Of a stretch of DNA of 64,000 nt, positions 13,311-53,124 are shown piece after piece; the stretch's first letter is position 1; each line of letters opens with the position of its first letter. Both the position numbers and the translations under genes were made by a program. The notes under the pieces were generated by a model that ran no database searches, was not told the DNA's origin, and saw only the letters and a program-made list of their open reading frames with translations. Source of the DNA: Olsenella uli (GTDB lineage Bacteria; Actinomycetota; Coriobacteriia; Coriobacteriales; Atopobiaceae); NCBI RefSeq assembly GCF_016899935.1, contig NZ_JACJJK010000001.1, forward strand, positions 124,001-188,000, written 5' to 3'.

Positions 13311-13450
13311 CCCCGGTCTTGTGTGGGCAAACTTCTTGAACCAGTTTGCCCTCCGGATCTTACGTGGGCTGTTTCTACCTGCGGAAATGCTCCGGACATG
13401 CCTTATGTGGGTTCAGATGGTTCAAGAAGTTTGCCCACACAAGACCGGGG
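13311..13450. repeat. REPIN-like element A (33-bp perfect arms)
   Basis: The 33-base arms 13311-13343 and 13418-13450 are exact reverse complements around a 74-base centre. Inside the left arm and loop GGGCAAAC and GTTTGCCC form a second eight-pair hairpin with an 11-base loop. Related copies B and C (50752, 52127) share GGGCAAAC, AACCA and TATGTGGG/TATCTGGG blocks. Extreme arm identity suggests recent insertion or gene conversion. Confidence 0.8.
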
Positions 13451-35304: not shown

Positions 35305-36228
35305 ATGGCAGACTCCCCGCTCGGGCGCACGCTCCTCATCGCCAACCCAGCCGCGCACAGCGGCAAGGGGGCGGCCGGCGCGGAGTTCGCCCGCCGCTTC
35401 CTCTCCAGCTACTCCTCCGTCACCGACGGCTACGAGATGCGGCTCACGGCCGGCCCCGGGGACGCCACCGCCCTCGCCGGGGCGGCCGAGGGGTTTGACA
35501 CAGTGCTCGTCCTGGGCGGCGACGGCGTCATCCACGAGACGGTCTGCGGCCTCATGGAACGCCCGGCGGACGCGCGGCCCCGGCTCGGGGTCGTCCCGCT
35601 CGGCTCCGGCAACGACTACGCGCGCACGCTCGGCATGGCGAGAAACGACGTCGAGGCGGCGCTCGCCCAGATCGTGCGCGGACGGGCGCGCCCGCTCGAG
35701 GTCGGGCGCGTGAACGACACCTACTTCATGGAGACGCTCTCCTTCGGGCTGGACGCGGCCATCGCGCTCGACACGACGCGGCGGCGCGCGGAGGACACCT
35801 CCCAGGAGGGCGAGGCGCTCTTCGTCACGTCGGGCCTCAGGATCCTCTCGCGCGCCAAGGGCGGCTTTCCCTGCACGGCGACCTTCGACGACGAGGAGCC
35901 CGTCGAGCTCTCCACGCTCGTCTTCGCCGTCCAGGTGGGGCCAAGCTACGGCGGGGGCTTTCGCATCTGCCCGGACGCCGACCCCGCCGACGGGCTTCTC
36001 GACGTCTGCTACAACACGCGCAAGCCGTCCCTGCCGCGCCTCTTGGCCCTCTTCGGGCTCGCCCGGACCGGGCGGCACGTCCGCTCGAGCGTCGTCGAGA
36101 CGCGCCGCACGCGCCACGCCCGACTCGAGTTCGCGGCCGCGCCGCCCTGTCAGGTCGACGGGGAGGCCCTCGAGGGCACGTCCTTCTCGATCGACGTAAT
36201 CCCCTTCGCCCTCCGCGTCATCTGTTAA
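35305..36228 (+). CDS. Diacylglycerol/lipid kinase (YegS/DagK family)
   Basis: Lipid kinase of 307 residues that would phosphorylate diacylglycerol or a related lipid at the membrane. LLIANPAAHSGKG (residues about 10-22) opens the catalytic domain, then VLGGDGVIHETVCGL (the GGDG nucleotide-binding motif) and VVPLGSGNDYARTLGM (GSGNDxAR), all diagnostic. The C-terminal beta domain ends with PCQVDGEAL. ATG at 35305. The stop is TAA within REP copy 8 (...VIC then TAA), so the repeat supplies the stop. Confidence 0.9.
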   Translation: MADSPLGRTLLIANPAAHSGKGAAGAEFARRFLSSYSSVTDGYEMRLTAGPGDATALAGAAEGFDTVLVLGGDGVIHETVCGLMERPADARPRLGVVPLGSGNDYARTLGMARNDVEAALAQIVRGRARPLEVGRVNDTYFMETLSFGLDAAIALDTTRRRAEDTSQEGEALFVTSGLRILSRAKGGFPCTATFDDEEPVELSTLVFAVQVGPSYGGGFRICPDADPADGLLDVCYNTRKPSLPRLLALFGLARTGRHVRSSVVETRRTRHARLEFAAAPPCQVDGEALEGTSFSIDVIPFALRVIC

Positions 36229-36252
36229 TTGGGGACAGTCCCCAATTAACAG
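36222..36252 (+). repeat. REP copy 8 (ACAGT centre), left border of the RAYT gene
   Basis: Perfect 15-base arms. It contains the stop codon of the lipid kinase and ends four bases before the RAYT stop. Confidence 0.93.
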
Positions 36253-36255
36253 AAA

Positions 36256-36999
36256 CTATTGATGCAGGGCCCTCTCGATCGCGTATCGCCCTATTCCGGT
36301 CAGGCGAACCATCTGCCTGACGGAGAGCCCCGCCTCATGCATGCTCCTCAGCTTTTCGTCCCTTGTGGCGGGACCGAGCTGCTTCAACTCCGACACGGTC
36401 GACGGCCAGACGACTGCGGCGGCCGCCTCGGATGCGTCCTCGTCTGAGACCCTCTTCGCAAACTGCGGAAAGTACGGCGCGTCCTCGGCCTTGGCAAACC
36501 CCTCGAAGCCCTCCGACCCGCCCAGGAGGTCGAGCACCGGGGACGTGCTGCATATGCGCGCCGTCCCGACATACTCCCGGTAGCTGCTCCACGGATACTC
36601 GTCTGGCGCGGCCAGCCCCGCCTTGGACGGGTTGTTGTGAATGTATCTCACCGCACGAAGAAGCTGCGTCTCGTCCGTCACTGGCACGCTGTGGAACCGC
36701 TCCTGAAAGACGTGCCCCACGTGACCCCAGCGGTCGTTGAAGCGGCGCGCGTATGTTGTCGCCACCCAGTGGACAAAGTCGCTGAGATGGCCGAGCGGGT
36801 CGCCGACGAGCAGGTGAACGTGGTTGCTCATGAGGCACCAGGCGATGACGTCCACGCCGGATGACGTTCTTCCCCGGTCGAGAACCGAGAGGAACTCCTC
36901 GTAGTCTCCCGCGTCCTCAAAGATGACCTGCTTGCCTGCGCCCCTCATGACGACGTGGTAGTAGCCCGAATCAGAAAGCGCCCTTGGACCTCTTGGCAT
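36256..36999 (-). CDS. REP-associated tyrosine transposase (RAYT, Y1/HUH family)
   Basis: HUH single-strand nuclease of 247 residues related to IS200/IS605 TnpA. MPRGPRALSDSGYYHVVMRG is the usual RAYT opening. The HUH site is SNHVHLLV (about 60-67), and the catalytic Tyr fits LRAVRYIHNNPSKAG (about 114-128). The segment HVGHVFQERFHS before it is also typical. The C-terminal ~90 residues are extra and end with RQMVRLTGIGRYAIERALHQ, helix-turn-helix-like. Start chosen at ATG 36999 from the family pattern; ATG 37011 is possible. REP copies 8 and 9 abut it in inverted orientation, so it very probably processes this REP family. No insertion-sequence ends or tnpB are present. Confidence 0.9.
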   Translation of the reverse strand: MPRGPRALSDSGYYHVVMRGAGKQVIFEDAGDYEEFLSVLDRGRTSSGVDVIAWCLMSNHVHLLVGDPLGHLSDFVHWVATTYARRFNDRWGHVGHVFQERFHSVPVTDETQLLRAVRYIHNNPSKAGLAAPDEYPWSSYREYVGTARICSTSPVLDLLGGSEGFEGFAKAEDAPYFPQFAKRVSDEDASEAAAAVVWPSTVSELKQLGPATRDEKLRSMHEAGLSVRQMVRLTGIGRYAIERALHQ

Positions 37000-37092
37000 G
37001 CGCACCCCCATCTCCCCGTGAAGGCGTCTTACCCCAAATCGGCCAAGAGAGATGCCGCCCGCCGACGGTTCGGCGAGCGGCATCAAATGTTT

Positions 37093-37132
37093 GTGTTAAT
37101 TGGGGACTGTCCCCAATTTACCCAATTTACAG
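37093..37132 (+). repeat. REP copy 9 (ACTGT centre), right border of the RAYT gene
   Basis: Palindrome followed by a duplicated half arm (CCAATTTACAG), which touches the ptsI stop. Opposite orientation to copy 8. Confidence 0.92.
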
Positions 37133-48295: not shown

Positions 48296-49777
48296 ATGTC
48301 GTTCTATCACAGCACGCGCTCGGGCGCGAATTCCGTAACAAGCAAGCAAGCTATCCTCGCCGGGATCGCCCCGGACGGCGGCCTCTACGTCTCCGACGAG
48401 CTGGGCGAGAAGCGCCTCTCGCTGGAGGCCGTGTGCGGCCAGACCTACCACGAGACCGCGCGCCTCGTGCTGGGGACGCTCCTGGACGACTATACGGAAG
48501 ACGAGCTCGCGAGCTGCGTGGAGGCGGCCTATGGCGCGCAGTGGGACAACGAGGCCGTCTGCCCGGTGACGCCGCTCGGCACCGACTGGCTGCTCGAGCT
48601 CTACCACGGCCCCACCTGCGCCTTCAAGGACGTGGCGCTGCAGATGCTGCCCCAGCTCATGCGCGTGGCGCGCGGCGCGGACGGCGAGAAGATTATGATC
48701 GTCACCGCCACCTCCGGCGACACCGGCAAAGCCGCGCTCGACGGCTTCGCGGGCGTGGAGGGCATGGGCGTCACGGTGTTCTACCCCGCCGGCAAGGTCT
48801 CCGACATCCAGCGCCTCCAGATGGTGACCCAGCTCGGGGGCAACGTGGCCGTGTGCGCCGTCAACGGCACCTTCGACGACTGCCAGGGCCAGGTCAAGCG
48901 CGTCTTCGCCGACCGCGAGCTCGCGGCGCGCCTCGCCGGGCGCGGCGTCGCGCTCTCGAGCGCCAACTCGATCAACGTGGGCCGCCTCGCGCCGCAGGTG
49001 ACCTACTACTTCGACGCCTACGCGCAGCTCGTGCGCCGCGCGGCCGTCCGCCCCGGCGACGAGGTCACCTTCTGCGTGCCCACCGGCAACTTCGGCGACG
49101 TCCTCGCCGGCTACTACGCCAAGCGCCTCGGCCTGCCCGTGCGCCGCCTCATCGTGGCCTCCAACGCCAACGACGTGCTCACGGACTTCCTCACGACCGG
49201 CACCTACGACCGCCGGCGCGACTTCCACAAGACCATCTCGCCCTCGATGGACATCCTCGTCTCCTCCAACCTGGAGCGCCTGCTCTACTTTGCCTCCGAC
49301 GGCGACTGCGAGCTCGTGGCCTCCCTCATGGCCGACCTTGCCGAGAAGGGCGTCTACACCGTGCCCGACCGCGTCATGGACGAGATTCGCTCCGTCTTCT
49401 CCTGCGGGCGCGCCGACGACGAGGCCACGCGCGCGACCATCCGCGACGCCTGGCGCGAGCTCGACGTCCTCATCGACCCGCACACGGCCGTGGCCAAGCA
49501 CGTGCTGGACGCGACGCCGAGCGACGGCACGGAGCGCGTCTGCCTCTCCACGGCGAGTCCCTACAAGTTCTGCGCCGACGTCCTGGCCGCGCTCGGCGAG
49601 GTCACCGACGGCATGAACGGCTTTGCCTGCATGGACGCCCTCGAGCGCCTCACGGGCACCGTGGCGCCGCCGCAGCTCTCGGGCCTGCGCGCCGGTGAGG
49701 TCCTGCACGACGACGTCTGCGACCCCGACCGCGTGGGCGCGTATGTGGAGTCCGCCTGCGCGCGGGTGTTTCTGTGA
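48296..49777 (+). CDS. thrC: Threonine synthase
   Basis: PLP enzyme that converts phosphohomoserine to threonine; 493 residues, the longer yeast/E. coli-type form. MSFYHSTRSGA and ISPDGGLYV-like AGIAPDGGLYVSDEL open the protein, the PLP Lys is in HGPTCAFKDVALQMLPQL, and the phosphate loop in TSGDTGKAAL. ATG at 48296 follows AAGGAG; an upstream GTG at 48266 lacks one. Overlaps thrB by four bases (GTGA). Confidence 0.96.
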   Translation: MSFYHSTRSGANSVTSKQAILAGIAPDGGLYVSDELGEKRLSLEAVCGQTYHETARLVLGTLLDDYTEDELASCVEAAYGAQWDNEAVCPVTPLGTDWLLELYHGPTCAFKDVALQMLPQLMRVARGADGEKIMIVTATSGDTGKAALDGFAGVEGMGVTVFYPAGKVSDIQRLQMVTQLGGNVAVCAVNGTFDDCQGQVKRVFADRELAARLAGRGVALSSANSINVGRLAPQVTYYFDAYAQLVRRAAVRPGDEVTFCVPTGNFGDVLAGYYAKRLGLPVRRLIVASNANDVLTDFLTTGTYDRRRDFHKTISPSMDILVSSNLERLLYFASDGDCELVASLMADLAEKGVYTVPDRVMDEIRSVFSCGRADDEATRATIRDAWRELDVLIDPHTAVAKHVLDATPSDGTERVCLSTASPYKFCADVLAALGEVTDGMNGFACMDALERLTGTVAPPQLSGLRAGEVLHDDVCDPDRVGAYVESACARVFL

Positions 49778-50682
49778 TCGGGGCCGACGGACAGGAGCGC
49801 CCGGTCGCGATCGTGCGCGTGCCCGCGACGAGCGCGAACGTGGGCGTGGGCTTTGACTGCCTGGGCATCGCGCTCGACCTCACGGCGACCTTTCTCATGG
49901 CGCCCGCCGAGCGTCTGGAGATCGTAGGCTGCGAGGAGCGCTTTCGCGGCGAGGACAACCTCGTCTGGCAGAGCTACCTCGGCGCCTGCGAGCGGCTGGG
50001 CGTGGAGGCGTTTCCGCTCCACATAACGATCCTCTCCCCCATCCCGCTCTCCGGCGGCCTGGGGTCGAGCTCCGCGTGCGTGATTGCCGGCATCGCCGCC
50101 GCGATGGCGCTCGCCGGCGACGGCTTTGACCGCAGGCGAGCGCTCGAGCTCGCCTGCGCGGAGGAGGGTCACCCCGACAACGTGGCGCCGGCGCTTCTCG
50201 GCGGGCTCGTGAGCTCGTTCGTCGACGGCGACGCAACCACCTCGACCCGCATGGACGTAGCCGACAACCTGCGCTTCGTTGCCATCGCGCCGCCCTACGA
50301 GGTCCGCACGGCCGACGCGCGCCGCGTGCTTCCCGAGGAGGTCTCGCGCGAGACGGCCGTCTGGCAGATGGGCCGGGTCGTGGCCACGGTGCGCGCGCTC
50401 GAGCTCGGCGACGCGGTGCTGCTCGGCGCGGCGTGCCACGACCGGCTGCACGAGCCGTACCGCGCGCAGCTCATCCCCGACTACGAGGCGCTGCGAGCGG
50501 CGGCCCTGGGCGCCGGGGCCTGCGCGTTCATGATCTCCGGCTCGGGCTCCACGATGCTCGCCGTGGCCGACGGCGACGAGGCGGCGGCGCACGTGGCCGA
50601 CGCGCTCGCCGCGACGTGCCCCGGCTACTGGCTGCGCACCCTGCCCGCCAACACTCTCGGCACCACCGTCGAGGTCCACTAG
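49774..50682 (+). CDS. thrB: Homoserine kinase
   Basis: GHMP-family kinase of 302 residues that makes phosphohomoserine for ThrC. VPATSANVGVGFDCLGIAL is the N-terminal signature, and PLSGGLGSSSACVIAGI is the GHMP ATP-binding loop; GAGACAFMISGSGSTM is the C-terminal motif. GTG at 49774 overlaps the thrC stop. Completes the threonine pathway with hom and asd nearby. Confidence 0.96.
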   Translation: MIGADGQERPVAIVRVPATSANVGVGFDCLGIALDLTATFLMAPAERLEIVGCEERFRGEDNLVWQSYLGACERLGVEAFPLHITILSPIPLSGGLGSSSACVIAGIAAAMALAGDGFDRRRALELACAEEGHPDNVAPALLGGLVSSFVDGDATTSTRMDVADNLRFVAIAPPYEVRTADARRVLPEEVSRETAVWQMGRVVATVRALELGDAVLLGAACHDRLHEPYRAQLIPDYEALRAAALGAGACAFMISGSGSTMLAVADGDEAAAHVADALAATCPGYWLRTLPANTLGTTVEVH

Positions 50683-50727: not shown

Positions 50728-50751
50728 CCCCCGTTCTGCTCCCGCCCCTCC

Positions 50752-50875
50752 TTGTCTGGGCAAATATCTGAAACCATCTCCTGCCCCTTTCGCTATCTGG
50801 GTCGCTCTGAGCTGGCCTTTCTTGAAAAGCTGGCGCTATCTGGGTCGAAGTGGTTCCACATGTTTGCCCAGACAA
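50752..50875. repeat. REPIN-like element B, left border of nuclease-like gene
   Basis: Ends TTGTCTGGGCAAA and TTTGCCCAGACAA are inverted repeats; the centre holds two direct copies of GCTATCTGGGTCG (50791 and 50835 regions). Its sequence aligns with the reverse complement of element C along nearly the whole length, including GAGCTGGCCTT. Confidence 0.85.
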
Positions 50876-50922
50876 CGAGAAGGACGGCGGGGGTGGCCGC
50901 CAACACGGAATCGACGGCGCCG

Positions 50923-51993
50923 TCACGCGGCGGGGCGCTCGCAGGTCACCCAGGAGCTGAGAAGGTCGCGGCGCAGAAGCGGCTGCCGACACCGGAAGTC
51001 CGGGTCCTCCAGGTCGACCGGGACCCCCAGCCGCTCCGACACCATGAGCGCGACCTCATCGGTCATCGCCTTGGACGCGAGCTGGTACTTCTCGACCACG
51101 ATCACCCGGTTGCCCACGTGGTTGAGGATGTTCTCCTTCCGCGCGTCCGTCGCCCGCCGGGACGGCTGCTTGTGGACGGCCTCGCCTTTGTACTCCACGA
51201 TGGTCCCGTCGTCCCAGATGAGGTCGCACACGAAGCGGTCCACCCCGTACGCGCGGGTCGCGGCCGCCGGGAGCCAGATCGCGGCGTTGAGCCGGGGCAC
51301 GGGGAGGCCGTAGCCGCCCATCTTGGTCGGGAGGGAGAGCACGAGCGCCACGCGAGCCTCGCCGGGGGACGCGGCGCGTTGCACGGCCAGCTCGAGCAGC
51401 GAGCGGACGCGCCGGGCGCCCCGGGGAAGCCGCTGTCCGGCCGCATCCCGCACGCGGGCCAGCTCGGAGAACCAGGCCCTGAACTCGGCCGCAGTGAACG
51501 CGGGAGGCGCGTGTCGAAGGCCGGTCGGGGACGCGGCATCCGGCACGAAGTAGCCCATGAACTCGCTGAGCAGCTCGATGACGGCGACGTCGCCCAGCGC
51601 GGGCGCGACCTGCACGATGCAGAGGGGCGCACACGCGACGAGCGCGCCTTCCGCCGTCCGACAGAACGAGCCGGCGGGGTAGGCGCCGCCGCAGAGGTGG
51701 CGCACCGCCCCGGGGACGTGCGCCCGACCGGCCTGCCGGGACACCAGACAGTCCACGGGACCGTCGAGCAGGAGCCGCTCCGAATCAAGGACGCGCCCGA
51801 GCACGCCGCCGTTGACGCGCTCCGGCGCGCGGATCAGTGACGTGGGGACGGGCAGCGCCGAGCGGTCGACCAGCGCTCCCTCGTCAAAGAGCAGGTCGAT
51901 GAGCGTATCGCAGCGCGTCTGGCGATCCACGGCACGGCGGGCCTCCCTCCAGAGCGCGACGCCGCTGTGATATCCGATGCAGAGCTCGTCCAT
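50923..51993 (-). CDS. Putative PD-(D/E)XK (DUF559/Vsr-like) nuclease with AbiEi-like N-terminal part
   Basis: Protein of 356 residues, not firmly recognised. C-terminal half fits a DUF559/Vsr-like fold: SPGEARVALVLSLP (Glu212), VCDLIW (Asp257) and VEYKGEAVH (Glu267, Lys269) give the PD-(D/E)XK pattern. The N-terminal half (DGPVDCLVSRQAG..., ending near VACAPLCIVQVA) resembles the linker region of actinobacterial AbiEi/DUF559 proteins, where the phrase is TSPERTLVDLA. ATG at 51993 follows GGGAGGGAGG. Inverted hairpin elements B and C flank it 47 and 133 bases away, so it may be part of a mobile or defence module. Other assignments remain open. Confidence 0.55.
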   Translation of the reverse strand: MDELCIGYHSGVALWREARRAVDRQTRCDTLIDLLFDEGALVDRSALPVPTSLIRAPERVNGGVLGRVLDSERLLLDGPVDCLVSRQAGRAHVPGAVRHLCGGAYPAGSFCRTAEGALVACAPLCIVQVAPALGDVAVIELLSEFMGYFVPDAASPTGLRHAPPAFTAAEFRAWFSELARVRDAAGQRLPRGARRVRSLLELAVQRAASPGEARVALVLSLPTKMGGYGLPVPRLNAAIWLPAAATRAYGVDRFVCDLIWDDGTIVEYKGEAVHKQPSRRATDARKENILNHVGNRVIVVEKYQLASKAMTDEVALMVSERLGVPVDLEDPDFRCRQPLLRRDLLSSWVTCERPAA

Positions 51994-52126
51994 GGCAGCC
52001 TCCCTCCCATAACGGTGCGGGAGAAAGCCGCTCAGGTCGCCGACGTCCCAAACCGACGCAAACCTAAACGACAGCTTCGTGTCAGGGAACAGCAAGACGT
52101 TCTTCTCGTCCGCCGCCCGCGCCCCT

Positions 52127-52296
52127 CCCCTCGCCACCCTCCCCCTTCGTTGCCTGGGCAAACATATGGAACCAGTTTGACCCAGATAAGCCCATCCGAT
52201 TAGAGAAGGCCAGCTCAGGGCGACCCAGATAAGTCCCCGGCGGTCAGATGGTTTCAGTTGTTTGCCCAGATAACGAGAGGGGGAGGTGGCGAGGGG
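52127..52296. repeat. REPIN-like element C, right border of nuclease-like gene
   Basis: Arms of about 37 bases: CCCCTCGCCACC...TGGGCAAA on the left and its near-complement TTTGCCCA...GGTGGCGAGGGG on the right. Internal half-sites CTGGGCAAAC-N11-GTTTGACCCAG form palindromes. Inverted relative to element B. Confidence 0.85.
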
Positions 52297-52416: not shown

Positions 52417-53124
52417 CTAGCCGCCGAGGTAGGCCTTGCGCACGTCGTCGTCGACGAGGAGCTCGGCGCCGGTGCCGGTCTTCTTGATCGTGCCGATCTC
52501 CAGCACGTAGGCGCGGTCCGCGATGGAGAGCGCCATGTTGGCGTTCTGCTCTACCAGAAGGATCGTGGTCCCAGCCTCGTTGAGCTGCTTCACGATGGCG
52601 AAGATCTCCTCCACCAGGATGGGCGCGAGGCCCATGGAGGGCTCGTCGAGCATGAGCAGGCGCGGGCGGCTCATCAGGGCGCGGCCCATCGCCAGCATCT
52701 GCTGCTCGCCGCCGGAGAGGGTGCCGGCCACCTGGCTGCGGCGCTCCTTGAGGCGCGGGAAGTGCGCGTAGACCTTCTCGAGCGTCTCCTTGTTCTCGGC
52801 GTCGGAGCGGGTGTAGCCGCCCATCTCGAGGTTCTCGGCCACGGACATCTGCGTGAAGACGCGCCGTCCCTCGGGGCACAGGGCAAGCCCGCGCTCGACG
52901 ATCTTGTGGGCGCGCAGCCCCACGAGCGAGGAGCCCTCGAGCTCGACGGAGCCTGACTCGGGCTTGATGAGGCCCGCGATGGTGTTGAGCGTGGTGGACT
53001 TGCCCGCCCCGTTGGCGCCGATCAGCGTCACGATCTCGCCCTCGTTGATGTCGAAGGAGATGCCGCGCACCGCCTTGATCGCACCGTAGGAGACGTGCAG
53101 GTCATGTACGGAGAGAAGGGCCAT
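52417..53124 (-). CDS. livF: Branched-chain amino-acid ABC transporter, ATP-binding protein LivF
   Basis: ATPase subunit of 235 residues. Walker A is IGANGAGKST, the signature LSGGEQQML and Walker B LLMLDEPSMGL, with the LivF-type start LLSVHDLHVSYGAIKAV. ATG at 53124 directly follows the livG stop. Last gene of livJ-HMGF. Confidence 0.95.
   Translation of the reverse strand: MALLSVHDLHVSYGAIKAVRGISFDINEGEIVTLIGANGAGKSTTLNTIAGLIKPESGSVELEGSSLVGLRAHKIVERGLALCPEGRRVFTQMSVAENLEMGGYTRSDAENKETLEKVYAHFPRLKERRSQVAGTLSGGEQQMLAMGRALMSRPRLLMLDEPSMGLAPILVEEIFAIVKQLNEAGTTILLVEQNANMALSIADRAYVLEIGTIKKTGTGAELLVDDDVRKAYLGG

Follow-up and report, generated by a model that had tools for sequence, protein, structure and literature searches.

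A Vsr-type nuclease gene of Olsenella uli enclosed by inverted four-site palindromes: a possible counterpart of REP/RAYT systems

Among the described systems closest to the locus reported here is the REPtron, which combines a TnpA_REP/RAYT enzyme with REPs (PMC8266576). In REPtrons, a chromosomal gene for an HUH (Y1) enzyme adjoins inverted palindromes, while further copies of the 20-50 nt hairpin, which carries a GTAG tag, are dispersed intergenically, reaching hundreds of copies. Enzyme and palindromes co-vary, the systems behave vertically, and several different ones are known. Two further proteins are relevant because they resemble the two halves of the enzyme described below: the EDxHD homing endonuclease I-Bth0305I (structure 3r3p; PMC3943268) and the AbiEi antitoxin (structure 6y8q), whose M. 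tuberculosis homologue Rv2827c binds four inverted repeats (PMC7319586).

In a 64,000-nt stretch of the Olsenella uli genome (the window), we found a nuclease gene enclosed by two palindromic elements, B and C (Table 1). As an earlier note on this DNA had claimed, the two are homologous and inverted and enclose exactly one gene; their 85-nt arms are 81% complementary. The half-site proposed in that note, CTGGG-CAAAC-N11-GTTTG-CCCAG, had zero matches in the genome by pattern search. Each element contains a 10-12 nt motif four times at fixed spacing. Three of the copies are direct and one is inverted: from left to right there are an outer site, two inner sites in direct orientation and the inverted outer site, at spacings of about 41, 43 and 25-27 bp. 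From end to end, the outer inverted pair covers 116 bp, within which the two direct inner copies (TATCTGGGTC) lie 43 bp apart. The extent that the note gave for element C, 52127-52296, corresponds to the full pairing of the arms, and the core within it is 132 nt.

Table 1. Features of the nuclease locus and related features elsewhere in the window (positions within the window).
Feature	Position	Strand	Remarks
thrB-like gene	49774-50682	+	left neighbour; named from sequence and thrC/hom context
Palindromic element B	50748-50879	+	132 nt, downstream of nuclease gene
Motif sites of element B	50756-50765 (+), 50794-50803 (+), 50837-50846 (+), 50862-50871 (-)		
AbiEi-like/EDxHD (Vsr-type) nuclease gene	50923-51993	-	356 aa; from sequence and predicted structure
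Nuclease domain (residues 209-324)	51022-51369	-	from conserved residues and structure match
Palindromic element C	52146-52277	-	132 nt, upstream of nuclease gene, inverted relative to B
Motif sites of element C	52154-52163 (+), 52179-52188 (-), 52222-52231 (-), 52260-52269 (-)		
livF-like gene	52417-53124	-	right neighbour; named from sequence and context
Dispersed element copy	13315-13446	+	GTGGG variant; long, nearly perfect outer stem
RAYT-like Y1 transposase gene	36256-37019	-	short palindromes TTGGGGACAGTCCCCAA at 36223-36250 and 37094-37121

A covariance model built from ten copies brought the element family to 12 copies in the genome, including B, C and the dispersed copy at window positions 13315-13446. 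One copy contains three inner units instead of two, the third being exactly 43 nt long. Across 36 element copies from three genomes, 83% of stem positions paired, compared with 29-45% when the partner was slid by 1-3 nt, and arm bases outside the motif were paired as well. Rfam models matched only tRNAs in the window and none of the elements.

The protein comprises an AbiEi-like part (residues 1-204) followed by the nuclease domain, and its start M1 aligned across all members of one family alignment. The putative catalytic residues are intact: among 85 members, conservation is 93-100% for S209, P210 and E212 (S-P-x-E), N236, D257, E267, H274 and D283. Profiles for MTES_1575 and DUF559 matched 16/32 and 11/32 family members, respectively, and the window protein itself matched weakly. 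In the predicted structure of the window protein (pLDDT 89, pTM 0.91), residues 209-324 superimposed on the I-Bth0305I catalytic domain over 96 residues (Z 10.9, rmsd 2.4), with further fold matches to 3hrl (Z 8.9) and Vsr (Z 7.7). This model places the domain within the EDxHD/Vsr nuclease superfamily. A profile match to I-Bth0305I (E 0.0016) puts the conserved E267 and D283 on its E and D; in this alignment H274 has no His opposite it in the crystallised 3r3p chain, and the stretch that aligns includes neither E212 nor D257. The N-terminal half matched AbiEi over 120 residues with a Z of 6.3, which is weak on its own. Sequence and predicted structure thus agree with the AbiEi/DUF559-like layout that had been proposed for this gene, as an AbiEi-like part joined to a DUF559/Vsr-like nuclease.

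AbiEi and DUF559-type parts are known in defence and toxin-antitoxin proteins, so the protein might be a defence or toxin nuclease for which the arrays serve as a sink, a restraint or a self-marking, for example in a toxin-antitoxin-like or addiction module. The rapid divergence of the gene at a constant locus and the many orthogonal paralogues per genome would fit this reading, as would a weak match to one PADLOC candidate (PDC-S37, E 8e-4) in 2/32 members. However, the family members matched no NCBIfam family and no curated defence system, and a simple defence gene is not expected to come with dispersed copies in each genome. Within the window, we saw no toxin gene between thrB and livF, no AbiEii toxin gene beside the nuclease gene, and no partner toxin or methylase in the bracket between the elements. 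We consider a defence function improbable.

The nuclease gene has orthologues at the same site (hom-thrC-thrB/livF-livG) in 15 Olsenella-type genomes, a count made up of the window and 14 of the 15 full-length homologues from named Olsenella-type genomes. Its neighbours are about 80-97% identical across these genomes, whereas the nuclease is only 34-60% identical. At this site it is a fast-changing gene that is vertically inherited. Each orthologous gene has repeated motif copies on either side, and although the motif sequence drifts between genomes, a spacing of 41/43 or 83-84 bp is kept in most of them. The earlier note had also considered a transposable cassette, in which the gene would move as a unit between inverted ends. 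Two features might suggest such a unit: the flanks are inverted and contain inverted repeats, and dispersed copies are present or absent at aligned sites. Because the gene, divergent as its protein is, occupies one site in all of these genomes, it is not a recently moving cassette; moreover, searches gave no match to phage, plasmid or viral contigs. This makes the cassette a very unlikely explanation. The same fixed site argues against a MITE whose autonomous partner moves between sites.

The nuclease belongs to a family that is nearly confined to Coriobacteriales, and most members of the genus have about 8-14 paralogues in each genome. Flank similarity reached the threshold at 44/87 family genes, compared with 5/147 other genes (Fisher p 8e-18), an excess whose size is approximate as the two groups were not matched for intergenic length. 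Hairpins were found on at least one side at 72/89 family loci and on both sides at 35/89 (shuffled flanks, 1/89); the remaining 17/89 loci had none by the hairpin test, and at some loci only one flank has palindromes. For 7/10 paralogues in genome G000 and 6/11 in G101, the cognate upstream-downstream flank match scored above every non-cognate pair, and matched flanks were also present at 7/20 loci in a second bacterial family. Palindrome motifs are thus paralogue-specific, most family genes having a private palindrome that changes alongside the gene. Other paralogues also have dispersed palindrome copies (a reversed-motif control gave zero), while several have flanking copies only, within the 464 kb sampled. 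An ORF between two elements in G101 (C14), considered as a further family member, proved to be unrelated.

The pairing of gene and palindromes is therefore strongly supported. According to the earlier note, bare homologues and many element copies unlinked to the gene would speak against such a pairing. Most element copies are indeed unlinked to the gene, but the homologues are not bare: most carry palindromes of their own that differ from those in the window, which strengthens the idea of an enzyme-palindrome pair. Also supported is the note's suggestion of a parallel to REP/RAYT with another enzyme fold, in which the nuclease would be maintained with its own palindromes.

The genome contains a single match to a Y1 (HUH) transposase, at window positions 36631-36966, and this could suggest that the palindromes are ordinary REP/MITE repeats moved by another transposase, with the nuclease gene enclosed by chance. 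As a mover of the four-site arrays this transposase was rejected, its gene being bracketed by different, short palindromes (TTGGGGACAGTCCCCAA; 10 copies in the window and four more in the sampled DNA) that are unlike the arrays. Similar bracketing by different motifs is also found at many loci of the family, but seldom around genes outside it. Chance enclosure is largely refuted by this paralogue-specific bracketing, and we give it hardly any credence.

Several short sequences recurred in hairpin loops. The 10-mer CGAGAAGRAC, with 262 occurrences in the 464 kb genome sample versus six for its reversed form, is enriched in loops beside family genes and may partly be coding. A core like TCTASCTGSGG, possibly a shared site, occurs in the loops of otherwise unrelated palindrome families, for example at window positions 50807-50817; ACCTGC was present at 18 loci, with 3.2 expected.

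Of the genomes of the genus that were searched, only G000, G109 and G098 had many R1-type copies; these three hold the closest homologues of the gene. In a leave-one-out analysis of these three genomes, 31/31 dispersed copies were assigned to their own species' motif, as were 5/6 gene-flank copies to their own genome without gaps, and the sixth once it was put in register. This own-species motif, which the dispersed copies share with those beside the gene in their genome, also appeared at several orthologous dispersed sites. This co-variation shows that copies within one genome share a single specificity. Since gene and motif both follow species descent, co-variation alone is no proof that the gene imposes the motif; selection on bound sites could also account for it. 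Outside about 60 conserved columns, copies within a genome were identical only at random level (30% in variable columns), so that recent copying is not visible, nor did we see recent duplication of copies within a genome. Either selection or recurrent copying followed by rapid decay would accordingly keep the motif in place. Neither target-site duplication nor, within a species, insertion polymorphism was seen. Intergenic DNA fails to align from one species to another, so that no exact empty site with a duplication was resolved. The element at window positions 13315-13446 is absent from the sites that align with it in G098 and G113. At one intergenic site (G000:C49:104283) and its aligned sites in G109, G098 and G113, the families of the palindromes differ between species.

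In the main rival reading, the arrays are operators: the AbiEi-like part would bind them, autoregulate the gene and control a small regulon through the dispersed copies, and no copying would take place. AbiEi antitoxins do autoregulate via inverted repeats, and conservation of the motif alone at near-helical spacing fits bound sites. On the other hand, arrays also lie downstream of the gene, and the dispersed copies, all of which are between genes, are in 18 tandem, 10 convergent and only four divergent positions, although tandem sites may still hold promoters. The AbiEi match, at chain residues 66-195, covers mostly the C-terminal domain and not the winged-helix DNA-binding domain. Operators also leave the invariant nuclease residues and the paired arm bases outside the motif unexplained. 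We regard this reading as unlikely, if worth serious consideration.

We infer instead that the nuclease acts on the palindromes by binding, cleavage, copying or maintenance, with copying in trans as the leading reading. Specifically, it seems somewhat probable that the nuclease recognises the four-site arrays in trans and copies them, gene and arrays forming a vertically inherited, REPtron-like pair. Nuclease protomers might bind the motif sites, whose spacings (41, 43 and 84 bp) approximate full turns of the helix, and form an assembly on either the array itself or the hairpin extruded from it. A cut or nick at the array could then start repair-coupled copying to other intergenic sites. The gene would persist because it is kept with its flanking arrays as one unit, and recombination between the inverted flanks would invert the gene and not delete it. 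As target specificity drifts, the arrays would follow.

Extended to the whole family, this suggests, more tentatively, that EDxHD nucleases spread or maintain their own multi-site palindromes across an order, with as many as about twelve orthogonal systems in each genome. The REP/RAYT problem may thus have been solved a second time, by independent evolution, with a non-HUH enzyme of readily changing specificity. If so, a nuclease that has no relation to HUH transposases can run dispersed palindromes in bacteria, and REP-like biology evolved at least twice. The naturally diversified pairs, 8-14 per Olsenella genome in many genomes, would provide a large set of nuclease-target partners, and the spread and persistence of REP-like sequences would become directly testable. 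Our searches of published open-access papers gave no earlier description of the nuclease-palindrome pairing.

BOX elements of pneumococcus have a modular boxA-boxB(n)-boxC structure, and their variable inner units recall the extra 43-nt unit in one copy here. We know of no cognate enzyme gene for BOX, whereas the present elements bracket such a gene. With I-Bth0305I, the window nuclease shares the catalytic fold and the profile match; unlike it, the nuclease is not intron-encoded, was not found in phages and stays at a fixed locus, and it adds an AbiEi-like domain and its own palindromes. AbiEi and Rv2827c resemble its N-terminal half and have inverted-repeat DNA partners, as the window protein may too, but they lack the fused nuclease, and here palindromes are also downstream and dispersed. 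REPtrons share the inverted palindromes beside a chromosomal gene, the intergenic copies, the vertical behaviour, the co-variation and the multiplicity of systems. They differ in their HUH enzyme, here replaced by an EDxHD/Vsr-type nuclease with an AbiEi-like domain; in their short tagged hairpin, here a 132-nt four-site array whose consensus has no such tag; and in copy number, here about 2-14. By enzyme and element form, the system is therefore not a REPtron, while its organisation resembles one.
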